A stretch of 25,066 nt of DNA, taken from the IMG/VR virus record IMGVR_UViG_3300021197_001390, positions 1 through 25,066 of that record; one strand, given 5' to 3'. Position numbers and translations under genes: made by a program. This DNA comes from a virus. The first letter of the stretch is position 1. The number at the start of each line of letters is the position of its first letter. The notes under the pieces are model-generated. The model saw only the letters and a list, made by a program, of their open reading frames with translations. It was not told the origin of the DNA and did not search any database. Positions 520 to 19,053 of the stretch are shown one piece after another.

Positions 520-1668
520 ATGAGATCGAAAGCATTTTTTGTCAATGGTGGAGCTGGCAGAGTTATTTGCTCCATCCCTGCATTTGAAAAGTATGCAGAA
601 ACTCACGACGATTTTATAATCGTTTGTGAAGGGGGTACTGATTTTTTCAAAGGTCATCCAACATTAGATGGTAGAGTCTTTGATCATTGGCATAAAGGAT
701 TGTTTGAACAAGAGTTGAAGCATAGAGATGTTATAACGACTGAACCATATAGAGTTTGGGAATACTATAATCAAAAGTGTAGTCTTGCTCAAGCATATGA
801 TATTCAGATTAATGAATTGAGTGAACCTCGTGAACTTCCTGCACCAACAATAGTTCTTGGTAAAATGGAAGTTATTGGTGGATACAATTCTGTTGAAGAG
901 GTAAAGAAAGGAACAGGAAAAGATAAGATTCTTGTTGTTCAACCTTTTGGTAGGTCTGTTGAGTCTGTTGGTAATGATTTTATTGCTGATCCATCTTCGC
1001 GTAGTTTTTCTTTAAATAATATTGTTAATATTATTAATGATTTGAAGAAAGATTATGCAGTTATTATCATGAGTGAGATTGAATTTCCTCTTGAAGAAAA
1101 TGAAGAGAAAGCAAAGTATAAAGTTGCAAGACCTCAGATTCAAGATGTGAGGATGTGGGCAGCAATTATTAATGGTGCAGATCACTTCCTTGGATGTGAT
1201 AGTATGGGGCAACATATTGCCAAAGCATTTGGTAAGACTGCAACAGTAGTTACTGGATCTACATACCCAGTTAATATTACTTATCCTGACGATAATGATT
1301 TTGATGTTATTGATGCTGGACTTGATAGGAGAAAATATTCTCCGATTAGATTGACTATGGCAGAAGATGTTGATCGGTATAATGATCAAGCAATGGAACT
1401 TGATAAAGAACAAGAACGACAAATTATCGCATCTGTTCGTAAGAGAATGGGTAAAGGAACTGCATATACAAACTATGCAAATGCATCAACAGCACCTAAG
1501 AATTCTGCTAAACCACAACTAAACGGAAGTAATAGTAGCAGTTCATTTAACGCTCCAAAACCTGATATCAAAAAACCAACTAAGGGATTTTTAACCAATG
1601 TTGATGCTGCAACACAACAGTCTAAAGTTGATGGTCAAGTAAAGGATATTCTAAAGAATCTTAATTGA
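520..1668 (+). CDS. GT9-like (heptosyltransferase-type) glycosyltransferase
   Basis: A 382-aa protein with a GT-B/GT9-like outline. An N-terminal GGAGRVICSIPAF (residues 10-22) sits where heptosyltransferases have their Gly-rich loop. A second half has VVQPFGRS (139-146) and HFLGCDSMGQHIAKAFGKT (222-240), which resembles the donor-binding DSG...H.A.A.G signature of ADP-heptose:LPS heptosyltransferases. Residues about 315-382 form an Asn/Ser/Pro/Lys-rich tail unlike the catalytic part, perhaps a linker or anchor. An SD-like GGAG lies about 12 nt before the ATG. The downstream ADP-heptose genes suggest ADP-heptose as donor, an inference from context. The acceptor is unknown. A divergent phage glycosyltransferase with another donor cannot be excluded. 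Confidence 0.6.
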   Translation: MRSKAFFVNGGAGRVICSIPAFEKYAETHDDFIIVCEGGTDFFKGHPTLDGRVFDHWHKGLFEQELKHRDVITTEPYRVWEYYNQKCSLAQAYDIQINELSEPRELPAPTIVLGKMEVIGGYNSVEEVKKGTGKDKILVVQPFGRSVESVGNDFIADPSSRSFSLNNIVNIINDLKKDYAVIIMSEIEFPLEENEEKAKYKVARPQIQDVRMWAAIINGADHFLGCDSMGQHIAKAFGKTATVVTGSTYPVNITYPDDNDFDVIDAGLDRRKYSPIRLTMAEDVDRYNDQAMELDKEQERQIIASVRKRMGKGTAYTNYANASTAPKNSAKPQLNGSNSSSSFNAPKPDIKKPTKGFLTNVDAATQQSKVDGQVKDILKNLN

Positions 1669-1676
1669 GGTAAATA

Positions 1677-3482
1677 ATGGCACAATGGATTGCTGCAGTT
1701 GCTAGAGGACATAACTCTGGAATTTGCTTGTTAAAAGATGGTGAGATGGTTCTCTCTATTGAAGAAGAACGTCTATCAAGACATAAGTATGATGGTGGAC
1801 CCATCGCATCTATGGTAAAGATTCTTGAGTATACTGATAGGTTAGATTATTTGGTCATTGCTCATACCCAACCATTAGGTGACAGTGGTAAGATTGATTT
1901 TACTGGTGATGATTTATACACTGGTATTGCAAGAAAGTTGGGGTTAATTGATCGCAAAGAAGATCTTTATAATCATCCTCAGGTTGTTGACCTTAGTAGA
2001 ACACATCATAAACTACATGCATCTTGCGCTTTTTATAGGTCTGGATTTAAGTCTGCAGTTGCTTTGGTTGTTGATGGTGCAGGTACGTTCATTCCTATGA
2101 ACATTGGTAGAGAACAAGAACTCACTTGGGAACTTGAATCTATGTTTACTTGTGAGTATCCCGCACAGTTTAAAACAATTTATAAGCATCAGGCAGGTAG
2201 AGGTCCTTGGGGATCTGCAAAGATTGATGAATTTGATAGTAGTGGTGAGGGTGAAGAAGGAACTCATGAGTTTATTCTTGATGAGAGTGCTGGTATTACT
2301 AAGGCATATGAAGCCGTAACACAATATTGTGGGTGGGCACCTATCGAAGCTGGTAAGACTATGGGACTATTCCCATATGGAAAACCAAATGATAAAATCC
2401 CACAAATTTATTCTGATAATGGTGGACTTGCTACTTGGAAAACTGCAGATAGGGATGTAATTGTACCAACATATCCAAATGGTGCTGTGGTAAATGAAGG
2501 TAGATATGAATTTTTAAACACTTCGGTTGATGTGAATAAAGATGATTTGACCTTACTCGAAAATCGTAGGGATATGGCGTATGCTATCCAAACAGAATCT
2601 CAACAGATGGTTTTGGATCTTATTCGTAAAGCAGTTAAAATCAGCGGCAACAAAAATGTTGTTCTGTCTGGTGGATATGGTTTAAATTGTGTAGCAAATT
2701 ATTGGTATCTTGATCAACTCAAGGGTGAAGGAATTAACCTTTATGTTGAACCTGTAAGTAATGATGCGGGTACTGCCATTGGAGCTGCTTATTACATTCA
2801 TCATCAAACGACAAATGACATGACTATTAGAGATAGAATCACTGACCTTTATTATGGTCCTGAATATGAATACTCTGCTGATGATATTGAAGAAGCATCT
2901 AATCGTTGGGGAGCAACTTCAATCAAAGGTGGGGTTGAGTATGGAGATGTTATTGACTTAATTGCCAATAAAAATATTGTTGCTATGTTCCAGGGTAGAT
3001 CTGAAGCTGGTCCTAGAGCATTGGGAAATAGGTCTATCATGTATGATCCTCGTGATCCTGATGGAAAGGATCATGTTAATAATGTGAAACATCGTGAGTA
3101 TTTTAGACCCTTTGCTGGATCTATTCTTAAAGAACATGTTAATGAGTGGTTTGATCTCCGTGGAATGGATGAAACTCCATTTATGATGTATGCCGTTAGG
3201 TGTCAAGATGGAATTGAAGAAAAAATTCCTGCAATTATCCATGTTGATGGTACATGTAGAATTCAAACGGTGACTGAAGATGTTAATCGTCATTACTATG
3301 GGTTGATTAAAGAGTTTTATGATAGGACTGGGTGTCCAATAATCTTTAATACTTCATTCAATCTTGGTGGAGAACCTTTGGTAGAAACTCTTGATGATGC
3401 ACTTAGAACTTTATCAAATTCTGATATAGAATATCTTTACTTACCAGAGTATCAGATCCTAGTTGAGGTTAAGAATGGATGA
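1677..3482 (+). CDS. O-carbamoyltransferase, NodU/CmcH/TobZ family (full length)
   Basis: A 601-aa protein with both domains of the family. The Kae1-like N-domain shows GHNSGICLL (11-19), EEERLSRHK (29-37), HHKLHASCAFYRSGF (110-124), VVDGAG (131-136), GKTMGLFPYG (226-235) and VVLSGGYGLNC (328-338). The C-domain (about 390-601) shows GRSEAGPRALGNRSIMYDPR (440-459), HVDGTCRIQTV (522-532) and FNTSFNLGGEPLVET (557-571). In characterised members carbamoyl phosphate and ATP give carbamoyladenylate, and the carbamoyl group is moved to a hydroxyl, usually of a sugar. It starts 9 nt after the glycosyltransferase gene with GAGG before the ATG, and overlaps the next gene by 4 nt (ATGA). The acceptor is unknown: a sugar made by the cassette is likely, a hydroxylated DNA base or protein possible. 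Confidence 0.93.
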   Translation: MAQWIAAVARGHNSGICLLKDGEMVLSIEEERLSRHKYDGGPIASMVKILEYTDRLDYLVIAHTQPLGDSGKIDFTGDDLYTGIARKLGLIDRKEDLYNHPQVVDLSRTHHKLHASCAFYRSGFKSAVALVVDGAGTFIPMNIGREQELTWELESMFTCEYPAQFKTIYKHQAGRGPWGSAKIDEFDSSGEGEEGTHEFILDESAGITKAYEAVTQYCGWAPIEAGKTMGLFPYGKPNDKIPQIYSDNGGLATWKTADRDVIVPTYPNGAVVNEGRYEFLNTSVDVNKDDLTLLENRRDMAYAIQTESQQMVLDLIRKAVKISGNKNVVLSGGYGLNCVANYWYLDQLKGEGINLYVEPVSNDAGTAIGAAYYIHHQTTNDMTIRDRITDLYYGPEYEYSADDIEEASNRWGATSIKGGVEYGDVIDLIANKNIVAMFQGRSEAGPRALGNRSIMYDPRDPDGKDHVNNVKHREYFRPFAGSILKEHVNEWFDLRGMDETPFMMYAVRCQDGIEEKIPAIIHVDGTCRIQTVTEDVNRHYYGLIKEFYDRTGCPIIFNTSFNLGGEPLVETLDDALRTLSNSDIEYLYLPEYQILVEVKNG

Positions 3483-4006
3483 TAAAAAATTTATTTGCAA
3501 TTCCTATATTTGAGGATGTAGTTGATCTTGATAAGATTCATATTGAATCTAAAGAGTATAATACTACCTGGGATAGTGAGATTAATACCAGTTTTGGAAC
3601 GGAACATAATGTTTCAGAAGAGACTTGGATACATCTTAATGAAGTGGTATCTAGGAATATTAATGAGATACAATGCTCTTATGATAATGCTAGAATAGAT
3701 GGTATATGGAGGAATGTTTATACCAAGAATGATTATCAAGATCCTCATATTCATCCACATTCGCAATGGAGTTTTATAATATATGAGACTGTGCCAGAGT
3801 CGAAGACACTATTCTTTAATCCTTCAATGAGGGATATTCAGAATCAAATATGTGGCAATGGAACACCTCAATTTCCTCTTGACTATAAACCAAAATTGAA
3901 AGCAGGATCTATTATTATATTCCCATCATTCCTTATGCATATGGTCACTCATGGAAATGAGGGATCAACTATATCTGGCAACGTATACTTGGATTATAAA
4001 CCATGA
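3479..4006 (+). CDS. Putative 2OG-Fe(II) oxygenase-like protein
   Basis: A 175-aa protein resembling the phage 2OG-FeII_Oxy_5-type family. It has a short N-terminal IPIFE strand motif, a WRNVYTK segment, a His-rich DPHIHPHSQWSFIIYE block supplying the first iron ligands, and FPSFLMHMVTHG...SGNVYLDY supplying the distal His. No classic HxD is visible in the first block, so the metal site reads as H-rich and ligands are not certain. The start codon overlaps the stop of the carbamoyltransferase (ATGA) and the end overlaps the next gene by 4 nt, so it is probably translationally coupled. Coupling to a carbamoyltransferase suggests it may create or modify the hydroxyl that is carbamoylated; that is inference. 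Confidence 0.65.
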   Translation: MIKNLFAIPIFEDVVDLDKIHIESKEYNTTWDSEINTSFGTEHNVSEETWIHLNEVVSRNINEIQCSYDNARIDGIWRNVYTKNDYQDPHIHPHSQWSFIIYETVPESKTLFFNPSMRDIQNQICGNGTPQFPLDYKPKLKAGSIIIFPSFLMHMVTHGNEGSTISGNVYLDYKP

Positions 4007-4410
4007 CTAAAGTATTTGTTAATGGTACATTTGATCTTCTTCATAGAGGACACTTAGAACTTTTAAACTTTGCAAAGTCTTTGGGTGATAAAGTTTACGT
4101 CGGTATAGATACTGATCGAAGAGTGTCTGAAAAGAAGGGACCTACAAGACCAATATATAATCAAGAAGAAAGAAAGTTCTTCTTAGAAAATTTAAAGTCG
4201 GTACATAAAGTAAATTTATTTGATTCTGATTTTGAATTGGAAGCAATGATTAATTTTATTCAACCTGATGTTATGGTTGTTGGATCAGATTGGAAAGGTA
4301 AATCTGTGATCGGGTCTATGTATGCCTCAAAGTTAGTATTTTTTAGTAGAATTGGTGATTATGCAACCACAAAAACAATTCAAGGTATTATTGATAGGGG
4401 AAACTTGTGA
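4003..4410 (+). CDS. hldE (AT domain): Heptose-1-phosphate nucleotidylyltransferase (HldE C-domain type)
   Basis: A 135-aa cytidylyltransferase-fold protein. NGTFDLLHRGHLELL carries the HxGH nucleotide-binding motif (HRGH), followed by VYVGIDTDRRV and VMVVGSDWKGKS. The C-terminal SRIGDYATTKTIQGI corresponds to the ST.II motif of the adenylyltransferase half of HldE/RfaE. The family makes ADP-D-glycero-beta-D-manno-heptose from heptose 1-phosphate and ATP; a glycerol-3-phosphate cytidylyltransferase-type activity is the main alternative. In E. coli this domain is the C-terminal half of one bifunctional protein. Here it is a separate gene lying upstream of the kinase and overlapping it by 50 nt in another frame. 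HldD downstream supports the heptose reading. Confidence 0.8.
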   Translation: MTKVFVNGTFDLLHRGHLELLNFAKSLGDKVYVGIDTDRRVSEKKGPTRPIYNQEERKFFLENLKSVHKVNLFDSDFELEAMINFIQPDVMVVGSDWKGKSVIGSMYASKLVFFSRIGDYATTKTIQGIIDRGNL

Positions 4411-5128
4411 TGATGAATATGTCTATGGGAATGTAGAACGTATTAGTCCAGAAGCTCCTGTTCCAGTTCTTAAGTATGACAGAACTGAAACGCATAAAGG
4501 TATGTCTGCAAACGTGAGGGCAAACCTAGAGTCTTTTGGTGTGCTTGTGAATCATATTACAAATAAAAAACCCATAATAAAACGTAGGTTGGTTGATAAA
4601 GGTAGTAATCAACAATTGATGCGAGTTGATATTGAATCTGAAATCGATTCCCTCAGACCATCCGAAGTTAAGTCTGCATTTGTTCATATGCAATATGATG
4701 CAGTTGTAATATCTGACTATGATAAAGGATATTTAAATTCAAATGATATAAAAGTATTTTGTGATAATTTTAAAGGACCAATTTTTATTGATACAAAGAA
4801 GACAGAACTTTTTAGTTATCCAAATGTGTACTATAAAATTAATCAAAGAGAATATGATAACTTGATTGTTAAACCTAACATTGAAAATCTAATTGTTACT
4901 TTGGGTGAGAGGGGTGTTGCTCATATGGGTAGCATATACCCTACCGATAAAGTAAATGTATTTGATGTTGTTGGTGCTGGAGATACTTTCCTGGCAGCTT
5001 TAACCTATGCTATGTTGAAGTACGGGGATATACCTACTGCAATCGTTGTTGCTAATAAAGCATCGGCAATTGCCGTTCAGCATTATGGATGCTATACTTT
5101 ATCTGATGAAGAGGCAGAGAATTTATGA
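4361..5128 (+). CDS. hldE (kinase domain): PfkB heptose-7-phosphate kinase (HldE N-domain type)
   Basis: A 255-aa ribokinase/PfkB-family protein. LIGETCDDEYVYGNVERISP near the N-terminus followed by EAPVPVL closely follows the RfaE/HldE signature, and SANVRANLESFGV matches the substrate-binding GGAANVA..L...G segment, though the two Gly are replaced by GM. VVISDYDKGYL, FIDTKK, VTLGERGVAH and the ATP/anion-hole motif FDVVGAGDTFLAAL are present. It would phosphorylate D-glycero-D-manno-heptose 7-phosphate to the 1,7-bisphosphate. It is about 60 residues shorter than the E. coli kinase half. I chose the ATG at 4361; an in-frame TTG at 4352 is less likely. The start lies inside the nucleotidylyltransferase gene and the stop overlaps the next ATG. 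Confidence 0.82.
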   Translation: MQPQKQFKVLLIGETCDDEYVYGNVERISPEAPVPVLKYDRTETHKGMSANVRANLESFGVLVNHITNKKPIIKRRLVDKGSNQQLMRVDIESEIDSLRPSEVKSAFVHMQYDAVVISDYDKGYLNSNDIKVFCDNFKGPIFIDTKKTELFSYPNVYYKINQREYDNLIVKPNIENLIVTLGERGVAHMGSIYPTDKVNVFDVVGAGDTFLAALTYAMLKYGDIPTAIVVANKASAIAVQHYGCYTLSDEEAENL

Positions 5129-5478
5129 GAGCAATATTACCAGGAATGAAAACATATTGTGTTGATATTGATGGTGTAATCGCTGCAAAGAATGGGACTT
5201 GCAAGACCTGTAAGTATGAAGCGAGTACTCCTATGATTGAGAATATTAATAAGATTAATAAGTTGTACGATGATGGTCATTACATTAAATACTTTACCGC
5301 TAGGGGTATGGGTACATATGATGATAATGCTCAGTTGGCGGAAGCACGTTGGTTGGAACTTACAAAATTGCAGTTAAGTGTATGGAATTGTAAGTACCAC
5401 GAACTTATTATGGGCAAACCATCTGCCGATTACTACATAGATGACAAGGCGGTAAATTCAGATGACTTCTTCAATTAA
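5125..5478 (+). CDS. Small HAD-superfamily phosphatase-like protein
   Basis: A 117-aa protein with a minimal HAD fold: motif I CVDIDGVIA (nucleophile Asp and acid/base Asp), motif II as FTARGMG, and a late acidic motif YYIDDKAV. It resembles the small HAD phosphatases found in capsule and LPS loci. The ATG at 5125 overlaps the kinase stop (ATGA); the ATG at 5146, just before the first strand, is an alternative start. Its position right after the heptose kinase makes it a candidate for the heptose 1,7-bisphosphate phosphatase step (GmhB role), but it lacks GmhB's usual length and zinc-binding cysteines in recognisable spacing (it has a CKTC at about residues 29-32). Function is inferred from context only. 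Confidence 0.7.
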   Translation: MRAILPGMKTYCVDIDGVIAAKNGTCKTCKYEASTPMIENINKINKLYDDGHYIKYFTARGMGTYDDNAQLAEARWLELTKLQLSVWNCKYHELIMGKPSADYYIDDKAVNSDDFFN

Positions 5479-5815
5479 ACACGTCTCTAAGGGGTGGGGA
5501 TATGAGAAGTGGATTGTTAATGGTGAATTATATTGTGGTAAACTTCTCTTTTTTAATGCTGGGAAGAGGTGTTCTTGGCACTATCATAAAATAAAAGATG
5601 AGACCTTCTACTTACAGAGTGGTCTCATCTCTTTGTATCATGGGTTTACTGATGATTTATCTGATTCCCAAATAACTATATTAGAACCTGGGGATAAATT
5701 TTATATACCAGTAGGAATGAGACATCAGATGATTGCTTTAGATGATTCTGAATTGTTTGAATTTTCTACACAACACTTTGATTCTGATAGTTATAGGGTT
5801 ATAAGCGGCGATTAA
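5462..5815 (+). CDS. Single-domain cupin, sugar-phosphate isomerase-like
   Basis: A 117-aa RmlC-like cupin. Cupin motif 1 is CSWHYHKIKDETFYLQSG, with metal-ligand pattern HxH...E, and motif 2 is LEPGDKFYIPVGMRHQM, with the distal His. GWGYEKWIVN near the N-terminus is typical of mannose-6-phosphate isomerase/GDP-mannose pyrophosphorylase C-terminal cupins. It may isomerise or bind a sugar phosphate made in this cassette. The ATG at 5462 lies 17 nt inside the preceding gene and is preceded by AAGGCGG. Its stop overlaps by a few bases the stop of the convergent hldD gene. Confidence 0.8.
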   Translation: MTSSIKHVSKGWGYEKWIVNGELYCGKLLFFNAGKRCSWHYHKIKDETFYLQSGLISLYHGFTDDLSDSQITILEPGDKFYIPVGMRHQMIALDDSELFEFSTQHFDSDSYRVISGD

Positions 5816-6612
5816 AGGTTTAGATAGTCTTCAATGGTTTTGAATTTATAGTTACCAACCCAATTCATATCTGCACAGGTGTATGTTTGGTACTTACCTT
5901 TTAAATGATCTGGAAATGGGATGGTATTAATTTTACCACCCTCTTTTTTTGCAACTAAATCTGCAACATGTTGGAATGAGACTGGAGATCCAGTACCAAG
6001 GTCATAAATTCCACTACCAGCATTATTGTTTAGAACAATATCTACAACATCATCAACGCATATAAAATCTCTAAGGAATTTATTTGATCCACTAAAGAGA
6101 TTTAACTCTCCAGTCTCTCTAATTTCCTTTGTAAATTTGCTGACAGGACTGGCTTGATTACCTTTATGCTCTTCTCCATCACCGTAAACGTTAAAATATC
6201 TAAATCCTTGAACTAAAGTGAACTGATCTATGTTGTCCATGACAGTATAATCTATCTGCAACTTTGAGATTGCATATTGATTGAGAGGATTGTATGTTTT
6301 AGACTTTTGATACACACTTTGATTCCCATAGACGGATGCAGACGATGCATACTTAATTGGGAACTCATATACGATCGCTTTATTTAAGAGGGCACATGAG
6401 AATCCTACATTAAAGTGCCACAATTTTTGTAAATCTTTCTCTGTAGTAGAAGATATTGCACCTTGATGGATAACTAGATCAACTTTATTCCACTCATCAA
6501 AATCTCTGAATAGTCTCCAAGCATCTTCTTGATCTACTAACATTACTTCTTCGGCAAGTTTATCTGCAAAACATTTGCCAATAAAACCTTTAGCGCCAGT
6601 TAAAATTATCAT
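5812..6612 (-). CDS. hldD: ADP-heptose 6-epimerase (HldD/RfaD type), SDR epimerase
   Basis: A 266-aa extended short-chain dehydrogenase. It has NAD(P)-binding TGAKGFIG (5-12), SSASVYG (90-96), catalytic YAISK (Y113, K117), and the HldD-like run GFRYFNVYGDGEEHKGNQAS (136-155), then RDFICVDDVV (181-190). The RYFNVYG...EGHKG.MAS segment is characteristic of ADP-L-glycero-D-manno-heptose 6-epimerase rather than GalE or RmlB. The reaction inverts C6 of ADP-D-glycero-D-manno-heptose. It is slightly shorter than E. coli HldD (about 310 aa). It faces the cupin gene and is driven by its own minus-strand promoter at 6628-6656, unlike the other heptose genes. Confidence 0.88.
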   Translation of the reverse strand: MIILTGAKGFIGKCFADKLAEEVMLVDQEDAWRLFRDFDEWNKVDLVIHQGAISSTTEKDLQKLWHFNVGFSCALLNKAIVYEFPIKYASSASVYGNQSVYQKSKTYNPLNQYAISKLQIDYTVMDNIDQFTLVQGFRYFNVYGDGEEHKGNQASPVSKFTKEIRETGELNLFSGSNKFLRDFICVDDVVDIVLNNNAGSGIYDLGTGSPVSFQHVADLVAKKEGGKINTIPFPDHLKGKYQTYTCADMNWVGNYKFKTIEDYLNL

Positions 6613-6677: not shown

Positions 6678-8258
6678 ATGGCTTTTGGATCCTTAGCAAC
6701 TATCAAGCCAACTGCGCTAAACAAGAGTGAGGTTTTGTACACCGCCCCTGCAGGTCAGTTGGTAGAAGGAAAGGTATATATTGTTAATCAAAGTTCTACT
6801 GAAATTAAAATCCGTATAGGACTTTCTACGGGAGGTTTGTCTGATTTTGATAGTAATAAGGGATACATTGTTTTTAATAAAGTTATCCCTAGAGGAGACT
6901 ATTATGAAACAGATTCTATTTACTTTGCTGATCAGCAAAGTGTAGTTGTTCGTGCCAATCATACCGAAGTAGCATTTACTCTTCTTGCATCTGAGACTGA
7001 GAACAGAGAGGAAGGAGGATTCCTTGCTCAAAGTGTGTCTCAATCCATGAATAGTAGCACTATCATGTTTACTATACCTACGGACTATAGGAAGTTTAGG
7101 GGTAATTTATATGTTTGTAATAGGGGATCTTTTGATACTAAAGTGAGGGTTGGTCTTGGATCTACTCCTACAGATTACCTTGAGTATAATTATTTGGTTG
7201 AAAGGGATACTACACATGTTAGAACTGATTTAAGAGCTGCTGCTGGAGATATTTTATACATTAAAGCTGACCAAGAACTGGTTAATTTTGTTCTTAGTGG
7301 ATACTATGAGAATTTTATTGCGTTCTCTGGAGATGTTGGCATTGGGTCAACACTGGTTACTACTAGTGCATATGTAAAAGAATCTGTATCAATTGGTATA
7401 ACTGATCCTGGATTGGGTAATACCTTAAAAGTAATTGGTAATACTGAATTAGCAGGATTAACTGTTACTGATAATTTGAGAGTAGATTCTAATGTAAATG
7501 TTGGAGGTGTGTCTACATTTACTGGAACTGTTACTTTCTCTGGTGGTACAATTAATACTGGTGTTGGTACTGAGAACTCTGTTGTTCTTGATGCTAACGT
7601 TAGTTCTAATGTCACTCCTGGAACAACTAACACCTTTGATTTAGGTCAAGATAGTAAGAAGTGGAGATATGTTTACTCTGCGGATACCTTCATAGGTAAT
7701 CAAATTGATTTGAGTAATGGTACTAGTGGTATTGCAACCATTGGTCGTGTCGGTACTGGAATGACACAAACCCAAGTTGTTATTGGCGCAGCAACCACTG
7801 CTGTTATGGCAACAGGTAACATTGCTGCTAATGGGGATCTGATTGTTAAGGGTCAGATTGGAGTTGGTACAGTAACTACTCCTCAATTGAGGGGAAATAC
7901 TAGTACAGGCAATCTTGAGGTGTGGAATTCCTCTCTTACCCGATGGATTCCTATTCAGGGAGTAGATACTACATTTAGAACATTGTCTGCCAATACTACT
8001 ATTAGTACATGGACAACTGTTTGGGCAGATACTAGTGGTGGTACATGGACTCTTACTCTACCACCATCTCCAGAGCAAGGAGATAAGGTTAGAATTATTG
8101 ACGTTAGAAAAACCTTTGACACTAACAACCTGACAGTTGGTAGAAATAGTAGTAATATTATGGGCGACTCTTCTGACATGGTTGTCAGTACTGAGGGAGC
8201 ATCTTTTGAGTTAATCTATTCCGACGCTACTCAGGGTTGGGTAATCTTCACTGTATAA
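6678..8258 (+). CDS. Tail-fibre-like virion structural protein
   Basis: A 526-aa protein starting MAFGSLATIKP after a divergent promoter region. The N-terminal part carries two copies of a beta module: VLYTAPAGQLVEGKVYIVN with IKIRIGLS, then IMFTIPTDYRKFRGNLYVCN with TKVRVGLG. From about residue 215 it becomes a Val/Thr/Gly/Asn-rich repetitive stretch (VGIGSTLV, LGNTLKVIGN, GVSTFTGTVTFSGGT) ending in TNTFDLGQDSKKWRYVYSA, a motif common in cyanophage fibre and base-domain proteins. The C-terminus (about 430-526) is a globular-looking domain with WTLTLPPSPEQGDKVRIIDV. A receptor-binding or fibre role is likely, but which T4 counterpart it replaces cannot be told. Confidence 0.8.
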   Translation: MAFGSLATIKPTALNKSEVLYTAPAGQLVEGKVYIVNQSSTEIKIRIGLSTGGLSDFDSNKGYIVFNKVIPRGDYYETDSIYFADQQSVVVRANHTEVAFTLLASETENREEGGFLAQSVSQSMNSSTIMFTIPTDYRKFRGNLYVCNRGSFDTKVRVGLGSTPTDYLEYNYLVERDTTHVRTDLRAAAGDILYIKADQELVNFVLSGYYENFIAFSGDVGIGSTLVTTSAYVKESVSIGITDPGLGNTLKVIGNTELAGLTVTDNLRVDSNVNVGGVSTFTGTVTFSGGTINTGVGTENSVVLDANVSSNVTPGTTNTFDLGQDSKKWRYVYSADTFIGNQIDLSNGTSGIATIGRVGTGMTQTQVVIGAATTAVMATGNIAANGDLIVKGQIGVGTVTTPQLRGNTSTGNLEVWNSSLTRWIPIQGVDTTFRTLSANTTISTWTTVWADTSGGTWTLTLPPSPEQGDKVRIIDVRKTFDTNNLTVGRNSSNIMGDSSDMVVSTEGASFELIYSDATQGWVIFTV

Positions 8259-8260
8259 TA

Positions 8261-8289
8261 TTGACAGTCGGTAAAAACGGTAGTAGTAT
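8261..8289 (+). promoter_or_regulatory. sigma70-like promoter upstream of glutaredoxin
   Basis: A perfect TTGACA (8261-8266), 17-bp spacer and TAGTAT (8284-8289). The predicted RNA start (about 8296) lies almost on the upstream ATG at 8298, which favours the ATG at 8319 as the glutaredoxin start. Confidence 0.7.
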
Positions 8290-8318
8290 TATATGAGATG
8301 CATCTTACGCCTACTAAA

Positions 8319-8567
8319 ATGAGCACCTTTATTGTTTGGTCAAAGGATAATTGTCCTTACTGTGTAAAAATTGAAGCAATCTTTAAGACTCTTGATCTCA
8401 AGTATGTTGTTTACAAGGTTGGTAGAGATTTTAATAAGGGGGAATTTTATGAAAAGTTTGGTCCAGGATCTACGTTTCCTAAAGTAGAAACTGGTACTGA
8501 GATTATTGGTGGGTGTAGTGATACGATTCAATGGTTAAAAGATAATAGTTATCTTCCTGGTCATTGA
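8319..8567 (+). CDS. Glutaredoxin (dithiol CPYC)
   Basis: An 82-aa glutaredoxin from ATG 8319; an in-frame ATG at 8298 would add seven residues but lies at the predicted transcription start. It has the active site NCPYC, the glutathione-binding TFPKV (the TVP-loop position) and the C-terminal GGCSDTIQWL. It would reduce disulfides with glutathione, for example in ribonucleotide reductase, which cyanophages commonly encode. It has its own early-type promoter just after the structural gene and ends convergently, with a 7-nt overlap, on the minus-strand bilin reductase gene. Confidence 0.93.
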   Translation: MSTFIVWSKDNCPYCVKIEAIFKTLDLKYVVYKVGRDFNKGEFYEKFGPGSTFPKVETGTEIIGGCSDTIQWLKDNSYLPGH

Positions 8568-9211
8568 GCCAAATCAAATAGAAATCCGTCTATATAATTT
8601 CTTGCGAAGTCTTTTGTATAATAAGATTTTATAATTCCGTATGCTGGATCTGTATATGATAGGTGGTGGTCGTAACCTTTTTGAAAAATTAGAGATGCTT
8701 CTTCATCACATTTTTGTGTACATTCTTTATACCTAGTTAAATATAGGTCTAATTTGTTCATGTATTCAGCATAAAAATCTTGACGATTAGTTTTAATCCA
8801 AAGTTTTTTGGAAAAGTAAGTATCTAAATTGTATATTTTTGATTCATTTTTTGTTCTATCTTCTTGGTCTCCAAGATATTTTTGAATATACTTTAAGTTA
8901 TATTCCTGGTCACTCCTTAGTGGGTGAAAGTCTATGGTTCCAAAGTATTTTACGTTACCACATTTGACATATTCTGTGCCAAATATTGGAGCATCATATT
9001 TAAATTGTGGATATATGACTAAAGATTCTGCGACAAATTTGCCATGTATTTTTAATTCGCACAGGCGAACTCTCCTTAGTGAGGGTGTCTCCCAAACATA
9101 AGATTTTATCCAAGAATTTTTATCTTCTATGCACGGGTTTAACCAAGTAGGTAAAGATACAGGAGTTAGGTTATCATATATCTCAAATAATTTATTCCTA
9201 ACTTCCATCAT
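8561..9211 (-). CDS. Ferredoxin-dependent bilin reductase family protein
   Basis: A 216-aa protein with the outline of the PcyA/PebA/PebB/PebS family. It has TPSLRRVRLCELKI (42-55), SLVIYPQFKYDAPIFGTEYV (63-82) matching the YP...D.P.FG.D block, GTIDFHPL matching the central DF/DLxP strand, a helix LDLYLTRYKE, and near the C-terminus SYTDPAYGIIKSYY followed by ARNYIDGFLFD. The family reduces biliverdin to phycobilins using ferredoxin, and cyanophages carry pebS, pcyA or pcyX. Asp188 corresponds to the conserved C-terminal catalytic Asp, whereas the position after FG that is usually Asp is Glu80. The subtype is unresolved, and no heme oxygenase gene is present in the window. It begins ATGATG; the second Met (9208) is an alternative start. 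Confidence 0.72.
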   Translation of the reverse strand: MMEVRNKLFEIYDNLTPVSLPTWLNPCIEDKNSWIKSYVWETPSLRRVRLCELKIHGKFVAESLVIYPQFKYDAPIFGTEYVKCGNVKYFGTIDFHPLRSDQEYNLKYIQKYLGDQEDRTKNESKIYNLDTYFSKKLWIKTNRQDFYAEYMNKLDLYLTRYKECTQKCDEEASLIFQKGYDHHLSYTDPAYGIIKSYYTKDFARNYIDGFLFDLAQ

Positions 9212-9228
9212 ATATATTCAATATTAGG

Positions 9229-9236
9229 TATTTATC
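9229..9236 (-). promoter_or_regulatory. Possible late-type promoter of the bilin reductase gene
   Basis: GATAAATA on the minus strand is one base from the T4 late box TATAAATA and lies just before the bilin reductase start, in a 25-bp divergent spacer. The leader would be very short, so this is a weak call. Confidence 0.3.
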
Positions 9237-10904
9237 ATGCGAGTTTTGAGTATGCGTGGGGGGCATGACGCATCAGTATCAATTATGAACAACGGTAAAA
9301 TAGAATTATTTTTAAAAGAAGAGAGATATTCTGGGGTAAAGAGAGATTCTAATCTTAAGTTTTGTTGGGGAGGGTTGATTGCCAGCAAGTCTTTAACTAA
9401 TTTGGACTATGCAGTATTGCAAACTACAGATGAAGATCATCTATCGTTTTATGGCAGACAAATACTTATATTTTCTCCTGATGTAAAAATTATATCAACT
9501 TTAGATAATGGTAAACTTGAACTTGGGCGGCATCATCATTTATTCCATGCAAGTAATTCTTTTTATTCTAGTGGTTTTGATGATGCATTAGTTGTAGTTG
9601 TGGATTCTGCTGGTGGATATCTTGGACCACTTGATAATCCATCAATGTATGAGAATCAATCTGTTTATCATATGAATTATGATAAATGTGTGCCATTGTA
9701 TAAGGGGTACAAAACTCCAGGTGATTCTTGTTGGAATGGCATTCGTAAACCTATTACTAAAAGGATTGGTAAATGTGATATTGGGGTGTCATTTGGTTGG
9801 GAAGGTATTGGTATAGGGGATCTATACAATACTGCACCTATGACAATGGGACAAACGATTCAAGATTGTGGTAAGGCAATGGGGTTGGCATCTTACGGTA
9901 AATCTGTTGATAGATTGAGTAATCTTTTTGATAGTGGAAATTTTGAAAAAGTAATTAATTATTTTGAAGATGTTAATCCATCATTGTCAGATTTTTTTAC
10001 GTTTAAAAGTGACTCCAATATATCAATTGATATTACCGAAGAAAATTATATGATTTTTGCTGACTATTGTTATGAAGTACAGACTCAAACTTCTAATAAA
10101 ATATGTGAGATAGTTGATACTTATATTAAAAGGACTGGTATAAAAAATGTATGCATTGGTGGTGGATATGGAATGAATATTGTTAATAATTATAATCTTA
10201 TTAGAAAATTTCCTGAAGTTAATTTTTATTTTGATTCTCTTTGTGAAGATACTGGGTTGTCTTTGGGTATAGCAAAGTTTGTTTATAGGAAATTGTCAAA
10301 GGATAAGAAGATATATGCGAATGATGGTTTAAGTTTTCATGGACTTAATCATGATGTAACTCCATACAATGGGCACAAATCATCTATAAATGACATATGT
10401 GCTGTCTTGATGCAAGACAAGTCAGTAGGCGTCTTCTACGGGCAGGCAGAGGCGGGACAGAGAGCGTTGGGTAATAGATCAATACTCTTTAACCCTTTGA
10501 ATTCTGATGCTAAAGACATTGTTAATAAAATTAAAAAAAGGGAGTGGTATAGACCGTTTGCTGCTATAGTACTTGAAGAAGATGCACATTTGTATTTTGA
10601 AAATTCGGTTCCTAGTCCAGAGATGACACTTTGCTTTCCTGTAAAGTCTGATATAATTCCAGGTGTAACACATGTTGATGGTACTAGTAGGGTTCAAACA
10701 ATTAGTTCAGACCATTTCCTATATGAATTACTTATTGAGTTTAAAAAATTGTCTGGACATGGTATTTTATTAAACACCAGTTTAAATCTTGCTGGAAATC
10801 CCTTAGTTGAGACTCCTCAACAGGCTATTGACATGCTAAGCGAGTCTTCTCTAGACTATCTTTGGTTTTTTGAAACCAAACAGTTGTTTAAATCCACTTT
10901 TTGA
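9237..10904 (+). CDS. O-carbamoyltransferase, NodU/CmcH family (second copy, full length)
   Basis: A 555-aa two-domain protein. N-domain motifs are GGHDASVSIM (8-17), EERYSG (28-33), HHHLFHASNSFYSSGF (99-114), VVDSAGG (121-127), GKAMGLASYG (212-221) and CIGGGYGMNIVNNY (306-319). C-domain motifs are GQAEAGQRALGNRSILFNP (402-420), REWYRPFAAIVL (435-446), HVDGTSRVQTI (479-489) and LNTSLNLAGNPLVET (512-526). It is about 46 residues shorter than the 1677 copy and clearly diverged, so this is not a recent duplication. It starts ATG 9237, 25 bp from the divergent bilin reductase gene. The acceptor is unknown. Confidence 0.92.
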   Translation: MRVLSMRGGHDASVSIMNNGKIELFLKEERYSGVKRDSNLKFCWGGLIASKSLTNLDYAVLQTTDEDHLSFYGRQILIFSPDVKIISTLDNGKLELGRHHHLFHASNSFYSSGFDDALVVVVDSAGGYLGPLDNPSMYENQSVYHMNYDKCVPLYKGYKTPGDSCWNGIRKPITKRIGKCDIGVSFGWEGIGIGDLYNTAPMTMGQTIQDCGKAMGLASYGKSVDRLSNLFDSGNFEKVINYFEDVNPSLSDFFTFKSDSNISIDITEENYMIFADYCYEVQTQTSNKICEIVDTYIKRTGIKNVCIGGGYGMNIVNNYNLIRKFPEVNFYFDSLCEDTGLSLGIAKFVYRKLSKDKKIYANDGLSFHGLNHDVTPYNGHKSSINDICAVLMQDKSVGVFYGQAEAGQRALGNRSILFNPLNSDAKDIVNKIKKREWYRPFAAIVLEEDAHLYFENSVPSPEMTLCFPVKSDIIPGVTHVDGTSRVQTISSDHFLYELLIEFKKLSGHGILLNTSLNLAGNPLVETPQQAIDMLSESSLDYLWFFETKQLFKSTF

Positions 10905-10912
10905 TATATAAT
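10884..10912 (+). promoter_or_regulatory. sigma70-like promoter opening the small-gene block
   Basis: TTGTTT (10884-10889), 17-bp spacer, perfect TATAAT (10907-10912). It overlaps the 3' end of the carbamoyltransferase gene and precedes the run of small early-type genes. Confidence 0.6.
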
Positions 10913-10918
10913 TTTACC

Positions 10919-11293
10919 ATGATGTCTGTACTAATGGATGAGGAATTCTCCACACTCTATTATGATGTAGAGAAAGCAATTGATTACGCATTTGAAGGTA
11001 AGTTTGTACTTAAATTGTATGACTATTTTAATGTGTGTAATGCAAAGCGTCGTCATGCTGAAGATTTTATTCAAAGTAAAACTGCTTCAGAAATTACATT
11101 ATTGATTTTAGATCTTGAGAAGTATTTGGAAGGAGGACAAGACTCTACTCACAAACAATTGAGAGAGGGGTATGGTCACATACCAAAACCACAAGCAAGA
11201 AAAATTAAAAAATATCTTTGTGATATTCTTAACGATGCCTGGAGATATAGTAATGACAAAAAACCAGGAAGACGGAAGAGGACAACTAAATAA
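10919..11293 (+). CDS. Conserved cyanophage hypothetical protein
   Basis: A 124-aa soluble, charged protein; I recognise its style (LYYDVEKAIDYAFEGKFVLK, then ITLLILDLEKYLEGGQD, then YGHIPKPQARKIKKYL) as a conserved cyanomyovirus protein of unknown function. The C-terminus is strongly basic (KKPGRRKRTTK), which may contact nucleic acid. Met codons at 10919, 10922 and 10934 are all possible starts; since the promoter at 10884 would start RNA near 10918, the ATG at 10934 (MDEEFSTLYY) is also credible. Its 3' end overlaps the next gene by 41 nt. Confidence 0.75.
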   Translation: MMSVLMDEEFSTLYYDVEKAIDYAFEGKFVLKLYDYFNVCNAKRRHAEDFIQSKTASEITLLILDLEKYLEGGQDSTHKQLREGYGHIPKPQARKIKKYLCDILNDAWRYSNDKKPGRRKRTTK

Positions 11294-11471
11294 ACCAGAT
11301 GAATCTGTCGATATAAATCGTGGATTCGAGTTAATGTTGCGTCATCGCAGCAGGAGGGAAGAACCAAAGCCTAGAACATTTGGAATAATGTTTGGGAAGG
11401 TCATTTCTCTCTTAAACCGAGAGATACATTTCCATTTTGAATTAAAATTTGGAATTATTAAAAAGAGTTAA
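11253..11471 (+). CDS. Conserved cyanophage small basic protein
   Basis: A 72-aa protein beginning MTKNQEDGRGQ. It contains SVDINRGFELMLRHRSRREE and RTFGIMFGKVISLLNREIHF, a pattern of polar head plus amphipathic strand-rich tail that I associate with a small protein conserved in T4-like cyanophages. Function unknown. The frame stays open upstream to 11172, but that part lies fully inside the previous gene, and the ATG at 11253 gives the better protein. Confidence 0.65.
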   Translation: MTKNQEDGRGQLNKPDESVDINRGFELMLRHRSRREEPKPRTFGIMFGKVISLLNREIHFHFELKFGIIKKS

Positions 11472-11486
11472 TCTCGGAGTAGACCA

Positions 11487-11708
11487 ATGTTAGCTATTAC
11501 ACTCACATTTTCCGCCCTATTCTCAGTAATGTTCTTATTGCTGGGCAGTGTAATTGGATGGATGGCAAAACAAAATCAGTACGAGACTACTGCAATTGCA
11601 TACACACATCCCGAAATGTTTGATGAGAATGGTAATCTTTTACCAGACGAAATTTTAGCCGTGAGATTTGAAAACGATTATGACTACGAAGACGAAGACC
11701 AAGAGTAA
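11487..11708 (+). CDS. Small single-pass membrane protein
   Basis: A 73-aa protein with an N-terminal hydrophobic helix (about residues 2-26, LTFSALFSVMFLLLGSVIGW) and an acidic C-terminal tail (PEMFDENGNLLPDEILAVRF followed by a run of D/E/Y). It is probably an inner-membrane protein with a soluble acidic tail. This small protein with the PEMFDENGNL motif recurs in cyanomyoviruses, function unknown. Its 3' end overlaps the DUF6433 gene by 29 nt. Confidence 0.75.
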   Translation: MLAITLTFSALFSVMFLLLGSVIGWMAKQNQYETTAIAYTHPEMFDENGNLLPDEILAVRFENDYDYEDEDQE

Positions 11709-12240
11709 TCCAGTTCCTGAATTACAACCAAACCCATTTATGCATGAGATTCTTCAAGCAGTTCATACTCAGAGGACTAATGCAAAAAAAGCAGAGGTTC
11801 TTCAAAAGTATAGAACTGAAGGTTTGATTGCTATTCTTATTTGGAACTTTGATGATACTGCAGTATCGGCACTTCCTGAGGGAGAAGTGCCGTATTCTCG
11901 TTCTGAAGAACAATCCGCACAGAATGAATCTCTTTCATCCTCAATTGAGAAATTGAATAAAGTAGATGGTCTCTCTAAAATGGATGAAGTTGTTCGTAAC
12001 AGAGCAACATCTATTCGTAAAGAGTGGCAAAATTTTTATAACTATTTGCAGGGAGGCAACACATCTTTGACTGGTCTTCGTAGAGAGACTATGTTTATTC
12101 AGATGCTTGAAGGACTGCATCCAAGAGAAGCAGAGATCATGATTCTTGTGAAGGATAAGAAACTTCAAACAAAATATAAAATTAGTAAAGCTTCTATCGA
12201 AGAAGCATATCCAGATATTCAGTGGGGAGGTCGTTCTTAA
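11680..12240 (+). CDS. DUF6433-like conserved phage protein
   Basis: A 186-aa protein starting at ATG 11680; a TTG at 11668 in frame is less likely. HEILQAVHTQRTNAKKAEVL near the N-terminus followed by an acidic-aromatic segment (IWNFDDTAVSALPEGEVPY) matches the DUF6433 family of T4-like phages. The second half is helical (RNRATSIRKEWQNFYNYLQG, then FIQMLEGLHPREAEIMILVK). Function unknown; the LHPREAEIMILVKDKKL segment also occurs in related T4-like phage proteins. It overlaps both neighbours (29 nt upstream, 1 nt TAATG downstream). Confidence 0.75.
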   Translation: MTTKTKTKSNPVPELQPNPFMHEILQAVHTQRTNAKKAEVLQKYRTEGLIAILIWNFDDTAVSALPEGEVPYSRSEEQSAQNESLSSSIEKLNKVDGLSKMDEVVRNRATSIRKEWQNFYNYLQGGNTSLTGLRRETMFIQMLEGLHPREAEIMILVKDKKLQTKYKISKASIEEAYPDIQWGGRS

Positions 12241-12503
12241 TGGCGAAGAGTCTAAGAGTCCTCCAACAAGACTGTGATAAAAGTGCAGCGGAGGATAAGA
12301 CACTCCCATATACCTGTTATTTGGTAGAGTATTACTCTGAAGGTACGATTCATTATGATTTGGTTACTGCCGTAAAGCAAGTTGACATTTTTGATGAGTA
12401 TTGGGATAAATATAAGCAAGGATTTGTTGGTATGAGACAATCTGAAGGTAGAATAAATCCAAAGAATTGGGGACCTCCCAATAAAGGAAAGGATAAAAAG
12501 TAG
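12240..12503 (+). CDS. Small hypothetical protein
   Basis: An 87-aa protein from ATG 12240 (TAATG overlap with the previous stop), with a strong GGGGAGG ribosome site at 12224-12230. It has TCYLVEYYSEGTIHYDLVTA and a Gly/Pro/Lys-rich C-terminus (NPKNWGPPNKGKDKK). No domain recognised. The basic, disordered-looking tail suggests a binding role, but nothing more can be said. Confidence 0.7.
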   Translation: MAKSLRVLQQDCDKSAAEDKTLPYTCYLVEYYSEGTIHYDLVTAVKQVDIFDEYWDKYKQGFVGMRQSEGRINPKNWGPPNKGKDKK

Positions 12504-18000: not shown

Positions 18001-19053
18001 ATGTATATTCTTGGAATTAATATATCACATCATGCATCAATATCTCTTTTGCATGATGGTGAGGTGGTATATTATATGGAGGATGACAGGTATAGTGGTA
18101 GAAAAGAAGAAGAGTGGGTATATGGTGATGATAAAAAATGTTTAGGTGACATTAAACATTACACCACTCATATAGACCATGTGATATTTGCATCTTGGGG
18201 TAAGTCTGGTGACTGTGATTATCCTGATTCTGATTTGATTGATGACATCATTCTTGATCTTCAAAGATATGGTTTAACATTCAAACAAATTCATTACAAC
18301 TGGGAGCATCATCTTTATCATGCCTGCAGCGCATTCTACTGTTCTGGATTTAATGAAGCTGCTGCTTTGATTCTTGACGGCGGAGGAGTCTCATTACTTG
18401 ATCGTAAAGAGGGAGAGTCTATGTACTACTTCACTCAAGGTAGTTACGATGTCATTAAGAAAGTTTACTACGCATGGGATGCACTTGAAAGAGATTATAC
18501 CAATTATAAAATAAATGATACTGATGTAATGTCTTCTACTATAAGTTGTGGGTGGATCTTTAATAGTCTTCAAGGAATTCTTGGTTTAGAACCAGGAAAA
18601 TCTATGGGTCTATCTTCTTATGGTAATTCAGATAGGTTTAACGATGATAATTGGTTTAAGTATGAAAAAGAAACTGAAACTTGGATTACTGACAATCAAA
18701 AAATATTAAATACCTATAGGACATTGGTTGGAGACTCAAAATACACACCATATGATGATGAAGATCCAGGCATTGAATTTCAAGTTGCCTCTGATTTGGC
18801 TAAAAAAGCTCAAGAAGAGACAAGAGACCATACAATTCGATTGATTAAACAATTGTTAAGTAAAACCGAAACAAAAAATATTGTATTGTCAGGCGGTTAT
18901 TTTTTAAACTGCGTGAATAATTATGAGTATTTGAAAGAGTTTCCTGATGTAAAATTTTACATCGATCCTGTATGCCATGATGGCGGTATCTCAATAGGTG
19001 CTGCTAAGTTTTTGTGGCATCATGTTCTAAATAAAAATCATCCCTCTAGGTAA
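18001..19053 (+). CDS. Carbamoyltransferase-like protein, Kae1-like N-domain only
   Basis: A 350-aa protein that aligns by motif with the first domain of the two full-length carbamoyltransferases here: SHHASISLLHDG (9-20), DDRYSGRK (28-35), HHLYHACSAFYCSGF (103-117), LILDGGG (123-129), GKSMGLSSYG (199-208), IVLSGGYFLNCVNNY (about 309-323) and DGGISIGAAKF. The chain then ends (HHVLNKNHPSR, stop) where the others begin the C-domain, so the GxxEAGxRALGNRS and HVDGTxRxQT motifs are absent, and PhoH follows 9 nt later. It is either a relic or a stand-alone acceptor-binding half that needs the C-domain from another protein. The N-domain motifs are intact, which argues against simple decay. Confidence 0.85.
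   Translation: MYILGINISHHASISLLHDGEVVYYMEDDRYSGRKEEEWVYGDDKKCLGDIKHYTTHIDHVIFASWGKSGDCDYPDSDLIDDIILDLQRYGLTFKQIHYNWEHHLYHACSAFYCSGFNEAAALILDGGGVSLLDRKEGESMYYFTQGSYDVIKKVYYAWDALERDYTNYKINDTDVMSSTISCGWIFNSLQGILGLEPGKSMGLSSYGNSDRFNDDNWFKYEKETETWITDNQKILNTYRTLVGDSKYTPYDDEDPGIEFQVASDLAKKAQEETRDHTIRLIKQLLSKTETKNIVLSGGYFLNCVNNYEYLKEFPDVKFYIDPVCHDGGISIGAAKFLWHHVLNKNHPSR

Follow-up and report, generated by a model that had tools for sequence, protein, structure and literature searches.

In Gram-negative bacteria, ADP-heptose is made and spent by the GmhA–HldE–GmhB–HldD–WaaC/F pathway, and ADP- and GDP-heptose routes have the GmhA and GmhB steps in common. Genes for 'heptose-related lipopolysaccharide (LPS) synthesis' have already been published for cyanophages in the excerpted text of PMC7378029, and cyanophage LPS or heptose genes are likewise in print in the available portions of PMC2984593 and PMC9602691. 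Here we describe a heptose cassette at positions 520–6612 of the window, by which we mean the whole 25,066-base virus record IMGVR_UViG_3300021197_001390 (positions 1 to 25,066). The original prediction, made from the DNA letters alone, read these genes as a phage-encoded late ADP-heptose pathway with a heptosyltransferase-like enzyme, in which only the GmhA step was missing. We propose that the cassette probably makes ADP-L-glycero-beta-D-manno-heptose from sedoheptulose 7-phosphate, with a small metal cupin as the isomerase, and that the product is spent on transfer.

A metal cupin accompanies heptose genes and appears to exchange with GmhA

We compared the window with viral relatives of its own kinase (lineage-1), of a second lineage in which kinase and adenylyltransferase are fused (lineage-2), of the cupin and of GmhA. 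Each scan returned the best 80 relatives, of at least 467 for lineage-1, at least 586 for the cupin, 246 for lineage-2 and 141 for GmhA, so that the counts below do not describe random samples. Lineage-1 loci were testable if they extended 3.5 kb downstream of the kinase, and loci with short flanks (11 from lineage-1, 36 from lineage-2 and 10 from the cupin scan) were dropped. Every testable locus, 69 of 69 in lineage-1 and 44 of 44 in lineage-2, had the cupin no more than 5 kb away from the kinase, and a GmhA profile matched nothing in either set. All 44 lineage-2 loci also carried HldD, and 37 of them a GmhB-family phosphatase (in L122, PRK08942 at 134 bits and TIGR00213 at 88 bits). A GmhA search of whole viral records, made for 50 of the 80 lineage-1 loci, returned one match, in L088, that was weak, partial and distant from the kinase. 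No GmhA model matched in the window, nor in 10 of 11 complete genomes of cupin-bearing cyanophages; the eleventh holds a 47-bit SIS protein in another gene cluster. The statement that only GmhA is missing is thus correct for the GmhA family, but probably not for the step, which the cupin fits.

The cupin also persists when the kinase changes. HddA and HddC, the GDP-heptose enzymes, replace the kinase/transferase pair in L174, L178, L193, L217 and L299–L301 (L217 HddA, NF049969 at 293 bits; L298 and L302 duplicate the contigs of L217 and L178), with the cupin retained in each and the small HAD protein staying near it in L174, L178, L193 and L301. Because the genes common to both heptose routes here are the cupin and the HAD, the cupin fits the GmhA step. 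From the opposite direction, 33 of the viral loci found through GmhA (best 80 of 141) carry a heptose kinase, and none of these has the cupin within 7 kb, a limit that leaves out L374 and L376; in L337, a split kinase, HAD and adenylyltransferase are followed by GmhA (178 bits). Clustering the kinases at 70% identity gave 50 clusters, 24 with the cupin only, 25 with GmhA only and one mixed. Within the mixed cluster, HddA is followed in L303 by a small gene and GmhA and in L306 by the cupin; the upstream genes are shared and the HddA proteins are 76–83% identical. These patterns suggest that the two isomerase candidates, cupin and GmhA, stand in for one another among related phages.

Seven of eight sugar-isomerase active-site residues have counterparts in the cupin

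By its metal ligands and the beta-barrel of its AlphaFold2 model (predicted local distance difference test (pLDDT) score of 95.7), the 117-residue protein is a member of the cupin superfamily, with a Cupin_2 score of 28.7 bits (cut-off 27.2). The motif HxHxxKxE occurs in 166 of 166 viral cupins, across which K27, H40, H42, K45, E47, H88 and E100 are each 100% conserved. For the Thermofilum D-lyxose isomerase TsLI, the consulted portion of PMC8378251 lists eight sugar- and metal-binding residues (K62, H75, H77, K86, E88, H143, E156 and D163) and reports that activity was abolished when the residue corresponding to K86, E156 or D163 was changed. Mapped through an alignment with 2y0o, the seven invariant cupin residues match TsLI K62, H75, H77, K86, E88, H143 and E156 in order and mostly in spacing, and 2y0o, a D-lyxose isomerase, was the rank 1 Foldseek match of the cupin model. 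The cupin D-lyxose isomerase class makes the lyxo/manno aldose, which is the stereochemistry required at the GmhA step. The protein has no match to GmhA itself (TIGR00441). From its linkage, the pathway slot left for it, its exchange with GmhA and its active site, we infer that the metal cupin is a sedoheptulose-7-phosphate isomerase. The ADP-heptose part of the original prediction is supported; its restriction to the late part of the pathway probably does not hold.

Proposed route and layout of the cassette

Sedoheptulose 7-phosphate, an intermediate of the Calvin cycle and the pentose-phosphate pathway, would be converted by the cupin, in place of GmhA, to D-glycero-D-manno-heptose 7-phosphate, as the displacement pattern and active site suggest. 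By homology, the pfkB kinase would then phosphorylate C1; the small HAD protein, standing in for GmhB, may remove the 7-phosphate; and the nucleotidylyltransferase, again by homology, would add AMP. HldD, a homologue that keeps the catalytic residue, would invert C6. On the strength of fold and linkage, the GT9 enzyme would finally move L,D-heptose onto an acceptor and the carbamoyltransferase would probably carbamoylate it, in an order that we suppose. The likeliest acceptors would be phage tail-fibre proteins, whose genes often adjoin the cassette, or else the host surface.

The window derives from a T4-like cyanophage. Synechococcus and Prochlorococcus phages are the isolates closest to it, and it also carries PhoH, gp32 and bilin reductase genes. 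The cassette (Table 1) runs from the GT9-like gene through the carbamoyltransferase, oxygenase, nucleotidylyltransferase, kinase, HAD and cupin genes to the epimerase on the opposite strand, beyond which lies a gene for a tail fibre. This order recurs in P-SSM2 (T4-GC 302 to 308; cupin YP_214543.1), but with the 2-oxoglutarate (2OG) oxygenase gene placed after the epimerase, and close versions occur in S-CAM1, S-CAM3, Sf-FS3 and S-SSM7. The genes are co-located in isolate genomes at about 40–64% amino acid identity, and their repeated order there rules out a chance grouping. Against loci L010 and L022, dN/dS was 0.05–0.12 for the carbamoyltransferase, adenylyltransferase, kinase, HAD, cupin and epimerase and 0.17–0.19 for GT9; against the more distant L023 it was 0.12–0.29 for all seven genes. 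The cassette genes are under purifying selection. Three NodU-type carbamoyltransferase genes lie within the 25 kb of the window, the third matching the N-domain only.

Table 1 Features of the cassette and nearby genes, in window coordinates
Feature	Position	Strand	Evidence and remarks
GT9-like glycosyltransferase	520..1668	+	PHROG 8954; heptosyltransferase fold in residues 1-312; C-terminal tail of low confidence
NodU/Nol-type O-carbamoyltransferase, both domains	1677..3482	+	PF16861 205 bits, PF02543 93 bits (both over cut-off)
2OG-Fe(II) oxygenase	3479..4006	+	PF13759 46 bits; variable member, found in some relatives only
Heptose-1-phosphate adenylyltransferase-like nucleotidylyltransferase (HldE C-domain type)	4003..4410	+	TIGR02199 101 bits (NCBIfam naming cut-off 181.5); PF01467 56 bits
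Heptose-7-phosphate kinase-like pfkB kinase (HldE N-domain type), shortened	4352..5128	+	TIGR02198 156 bits (naming cut-off 345)
Small HAD phosphatase, proposed GmhB step	5125..5478	+	TIGR01689 41 bits (naming cut-off 162); PHROG 1238
Metal cupin, 117 aa, proposed sedoheptulose-7-phosphate isomerase	5462..5815	+	Linkage; HxHxxKxE; Foldseek rank 1 2y0o
HldD-type ADP-heptose 6-epimerase, shortened near N-terminus	5812..6612	-	TIGR02197 217.6 bits (naming cut-off 274.6)
Tail-fibre protein flanking the cassette; candidate acceptor	6678..8258	+	PHROG 11338 tail fibre, 8.9e-36
Ferredoxin-dependent bilin reductase	8561..9211	-	PF05996 100 bits; cyanophage marker
NodU-type carbamoyltransferase, second	9237..10904
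NodU-type carbamoyltransferase, third	18001..19053		N-domain only

All five genes that the original prediction had named (GT9-like, nucleotidylyltransferase, kinase, HAD and HldD) are open, collinear and of the kind stated, as borne out by profile, motif and fold; the carbamoyltransferase, a regular companion of GT9, the 2OG oxygenase and the cupin extend the run beyond that list. The kinase, nucleotidylyltransferase, HAD and epimerase all score below their curated NCBIfam cut-offs (Table 1), and we therefore call them divergent homologues, not equivalogs. The best Protein Data Bank (PDB) sequence match of the kinase was 4e84 (5.8e-19), which we take to be Burkholderia cenocepacia HldA, followed by ribokinases at 1.6e-6 or weaker. 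The kinase holds the motifs RISPEAPVPV and GAGD, the latter invariant in five of five aligned relatives; its reading frame overlaps the preceding nucleotidylyltransferase gene and has an alternative in-frame ATG at 4361. For the nucleotidylyltransferase, the HldE adenylyltransferase domain (101 bits) was the best-scoring family, ahead of glycerol-3-phosphate cytidylyltransferase (66 bits). The nearest solved structures to the epimerase are those of HldD (1eq2, from E. coli, 4.6e-44); the residue aligned with K178 of 1eq2 is kept, as are the stretches PLN-Y-K, HKG and PFPD-LKG, and K150, Y113 and K117, a Tyr/Lys set to which we presume the catalytic roles belong, are invariant in five of five sequences.

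In the HAD protein the motifs DxDG, T, K and DD, whose roles we assign on the assumption that they are those of HAD phosphatases, are invariant in six of six sequences. It matched TIGR01689 only and no GmhB profile. Nevertheless, its placement at the GmhB step is strengthened by context: it occurs in 68 of 69 testable lineage-1 loci, lineage-2 has a GmhB-family protein in its place, and it often stays when HddA and HddC replace the kinase and nucleotidylyltransferase. We therefore read the small HAD as a putative replacement for GmhB at the heptose 1,7-bisphosphate 7-phosphatase step. In phage records this gene mostly goes under 'phosphoheptose isomerase', and the labels given to the cupin are 'cysteine dioxygenase' or 'putative nucleotidyltransferase'; neither the HAD nor the cupin labels fit. 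The possibility that the labelled isomerase is a true GmhA was rejected, as the gene is a HAD (PHROG 1238) and five complete genomes held no GmhA. On SynMITS9220M01, the same label sits on the weak SIS/GmhA-like protein (47 bits).

Heptose genes in the host family

We surveyed 201 genomes from the family of the Prochlorococcus single-amplified genome G074, which the relatives of the phage suggest to be the family of its host. GmhA matched in 44 genomes and an HldE-type kinase in 27, with both in 25 of the 27 (an overlap counted by hand). Heptose genes are a minority trait of this host group, which supports the original prediction, where marine Synechococcus LPS was said to be reported as lacking heptose and KDO. 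G074 itself was the only genome with a strong match to the phage-type cupin, and the contig concerned is phage-like by its genes; among the 27 kinase-bearing genomes the cupin occurred in at most one, weakly. In this family, cellular heptose routes thus appear to be paired with GmhA and those of phages with the cupin. Since most of the sampled genomes have neither GmhA nor the kinase, the phage likely brings the whole route, and since GmhA goes with cellular routes in a minority of hosts, it could not rely on the host for the first step. According to the available part of PMC4390846, cyanobacterial LPS has been reported to be without heptose.

Outside this family, a Bifidobacterium-labelled metagenome-assembled contig (L097, positions 7561–12414) has a single region that holds genes for an adenylyltransferase, the cupin, a kinase, an HldD-like protein and a HAD, and its genome (G051, about 1.4 Mb) gave no GmhA match at 1e-5; it is a possible cellular user of the cupin route. 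Phage cassettes also occur on contigs binned as archaea, Planctomycetes, Rhodobacteraceae or Neomarinimicrobiota (L089–L091, L093, L121 and L122), which are probably mis-binned viruses, because the L122 kinase is 100% identical to that of viral contig L218.

Alternative functions of the cupin

Several observations weigh against the isomerase assignment or the route built on it. The counterpart of TsLI D163 is uncertain (D107 or D109). By Z score, lyxose and phosphomannose isomerases tie with KdgF, CapF, Pac13, DddK and others, reflecting a generic fold, and the three best PDB profile matches are two quercetinase-type entries and SLL1358. To these are added the sub-cut-off scores of the four other enzymes and the dependence of the locus counts on the best 80 relatives per scan. 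GmhA and the cupin do co-occur: L374 and L376 carry both, with over 7 kb between cupin and kinase, SynMITS9220M01 has the cupin and a GmhA-like gene in separate clusters, and a GmhA-family match was also present in 13 of 26 cupin-carrying genomes checked. Furthermore, the cupin lacks a heptose kinase in 5 of 70 viral loci (L177, L181, L186, L191 and L204) and in about 24 of 35 loci from bacterial- or archaeal-labelled genomes, several of which adjoin a GDP-mannose-dehydratase-like gene; a wider, perhaps mannose-6-phosphate-like, specificity is possible. L173 was counted among ten kinase-less cupin loci, with its kinase just outside the stretch counted. In L181, L186 and L204 the cupin lies near 5.9–6.4 kb in another sugar cluster, with genes that by eye are CMP-sugar-synthetase-like and aminotransferase-like, and with short-chain dehydrogenase/reductase and RmlC genes. 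The second SynMITS9220M01 cluster (L393, positions 1867–2373) pairs an HddA-like kinase with the weak SIS/GmhA-like protein, besides the HddA–cupin–HddC cluster.

One alternative confines the phage to the late pathway, with the cupin doing something else and heptose 7-phosphate coming from a host GmhA or another isomerase. The generic fold is compatible with this, and the 25 of 27 kinase-bearing host-family genomes that have a GmhA-family protein indicate that some hosts could supply the step; however, any GmhA match is limited to 44 of the 201 genomes, and the invariable linkage of cupin to kinase (69/69 and 44/44) and its trading of places with GmhA make this reading unlikely. The mannose route offers a different explanation, in which the cupin acts as a mannose-6-phosphate isomerase and keeps company with heptose genes through a shared glycan-island effect. 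A weak TIGR01479 match (E = 0.0022), the structural similarity to phosphomannose isomerase 7zvy (Z = 15.2) and the GDP-mannose-dehydratase-like neighbours of bacterial relatives point that way, but the kinases linked to the cupin are of the heptose type, and the enzyme called mannose-6-phosphate isomerase in S-SCSM1 (QFG06376.1) is a different cupin, 26% identical, that scores 79.2 bits to TIGR01479 against 16.9 for ours, far from family level (full-length cut-off 372.95). We regard this explanation as improbable. Identity of the window cupin with the cyanophage mannose-6-phosphate isomerase described in the available text of PMC9602691 was rejected at the same 26%; that distinct small cupin (L394, positions 11870–12217) adjoins a carbamoyltransferase gene.

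Least probable, and in our judgement very much so, is a role in nucleotide-sugar tailoring, for instance as an NDP-heptose 3,5-epimerase as in the Campylobacter capsule. GDP-heptose enzymes of this type are, we assume, cupins, and some cupin loci also hold a dehydratase-like gene. That 3,5-epimerases acting on GDP-heptose exist is reported in PMC7949155. Yet the cupin also occurs at loci without any detected dehydratase gene, the window among them, all its metal ligands and the lyxose-isomerase lysines are retained, and tailoring leaves the exchange with GmhA unexplained. RmlC-type epimerases, for their part, are not known to need a metal.

Transfer and use of the heptose

The GT9 assignment draws on profile matches of relatives and on structure prediction. 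The window sequence alone matched only TIGR02201 (E = 0.0027), Pfam Glyco_transf_9 (PF01075) was matched by 19 of 40 relatives but not by the window member, and PDB sequence searches with GT9 alignments gave nothing useful. The AlphaFold2 model (pLDDT 85.7), by contrast, had Z scores of 23.0 to the GT9 protein 3tov, 20.0 to WaaF, 19.8 to TibC with ADP-heptose and 18.6 to WaaC, compared with 18–19 for plant NDH-supercomplex chains and at most 12.2 for all else. As modelled, the protein has a GT9 fold, and the expectation of an ADP-heptose route with a heptosyltransferase-fold enzyme in a cyanophage is supported by this fold together with the enzyme families. Residues 313–382 (window 1456–1668) are variable, of low confidence and outside the fold.

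For linkage, 54 of the 80 lineage-1 loci had 4.5 kb on both sides and were kept, and 26 were dropped. GT9 occurred in 32 of the 54, all 32 with HldD; 28 of these 32 carried the carbamoyltransferase and 22 a tail-fibre homologue. None of the 15 loci lacking HldD had GT9, carbamoyltransferase or tail fibre. GT9 and the carbamoyltransferase thus go with L,D-heptose, being found only alongside HldD in these loci, and this constant company lends genetic support to ADP-heptose as the putative GT9 donor.

The original prediction had left the fate of the product between virion decoration, a changed host surface and a nucleotide-sugar signal. Both the tail-fibre neighbours and the restriction of GT9 to HldD-bearing loci point to transfer rather than to a free signal, though they do not single out an acceptor. 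Window-class cassettes are embedded between tail-fibre or neck genes, and P-SSM2, S-CAM1 and S-CAM3 also have a tail-fibre gene after the epimerase; for this class, decoration of tail fibres with carbamoylated heptose would be the most likely use, with a change of the host surface about as likely. That the heptose alters the outer surface of the host (in superinfection exclusion or grazing) rather than the virion is a serious contender to which we give somewhat less than an even chance. It accords with the role published for P-SSM2 LPS genes in the excerpts of PMC2984593 and PMC9602691. In S-SM2, S-T4, Sf-CH8 and P-TIM68 the core is surrounded by glycosyltransferase or hli genes and is remote from tail genes, and 10 of the 32 GT9 loci have no tail fibre within reach, which tells against the tail-fibre acceptor. 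The position of the window-class cassette speaks for the virion instead, as does the fold neighbour TibC, a heptosyltransferase that acts on a protein.

We lean towards the broader view that small metal cupins are a hitherto unrecognised second type of sedoheptulose-7-phosphate isomerase, replacing GmhA in the ADP- and GDP-heptose routes of ocean phages and of at least one bacterium-labelled genome without a GmhA match (L097/G051). On this view the phages would encode every step needed to turn a Calvin-cycle intermediate into a carbamoylated heptose, which would end up either on the virion or on a normally heptose-free host.

Comparison with known systems

In the open-licence PMC literature we found no report of a cupin as a heptose isomerase and no earlier reading of the P-SSM2-type gene set as a complete heptose route. 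If correct, the assignment fills a gap in phage heptose clusters with an enzyme family new to the opening reaction of heptose synthesis, corrects reference-record labels that place an isomerase name on a phosphatase-type gene and call the cupin a cysteine dioxygenase, and makes available for in vitro testing a cassette of enzymes 117–266 residues long together with GT9 and the carbamoyltransferase. A further question is why viruses of cyanobacteria with reportedly heptose-free LPS (PMC4390846, in the part available) build heptose, drawing on sedoheptulose 7-phosphate during infection.

The cassette resembles the Gram-negative GmhA–HldE–GmhB–HldD–WaaC/F pathway in its kinase, adenylyltransferase and epimerase homologues, its GT9 fold and the proposed order of chemistry. 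It differs in that the kinase and adenylyltransferase are separate and shortened, a cupin stands for GmhA and a small TIGR01689-kind HAD for GmhB, and the whole is phage-borne and paired with a carbamoyltransferase. The same set (T4-GC 302–308), whole or in part, is found in the P-SSM2 LPS clusters and SynMITS9220M01 heptose genes, where it had earlier been catalogued under LPS or heptose. TibC-type protein heptosyltransferases, whose donor in TibC is ADP-heptose (4rb4), share the GT9 fold with the phage enzyme at 9–11% identity.

With the cupin D-lyxose/D-mannose isomerases (2y0o, 7nzo and 3kmh), the phage cupin shares the fold, the metal ligands H, H, E and H, two active-site lysines and a late glutamate; it is 24–28% identical to 2y0o and 7nzo over about 114 residues, has 117 residues against about 170 or more, and carries an additional invariant KGWG and R112, which might hold the phosphate. 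Type II mannose-6-phosphate isomerases, including that of S-SCSM1, are likewise small metal cupins of cyanophage sugar islands and, by family, sugar-phosphate ketol isomerases, but the S-SCSM1 enzyme belongs to another profile family, and the neighbours of such isomerases are GDP-mannose/fucose genes. The pathway would be of a known kind and its first enzyme, if confirmed, new.

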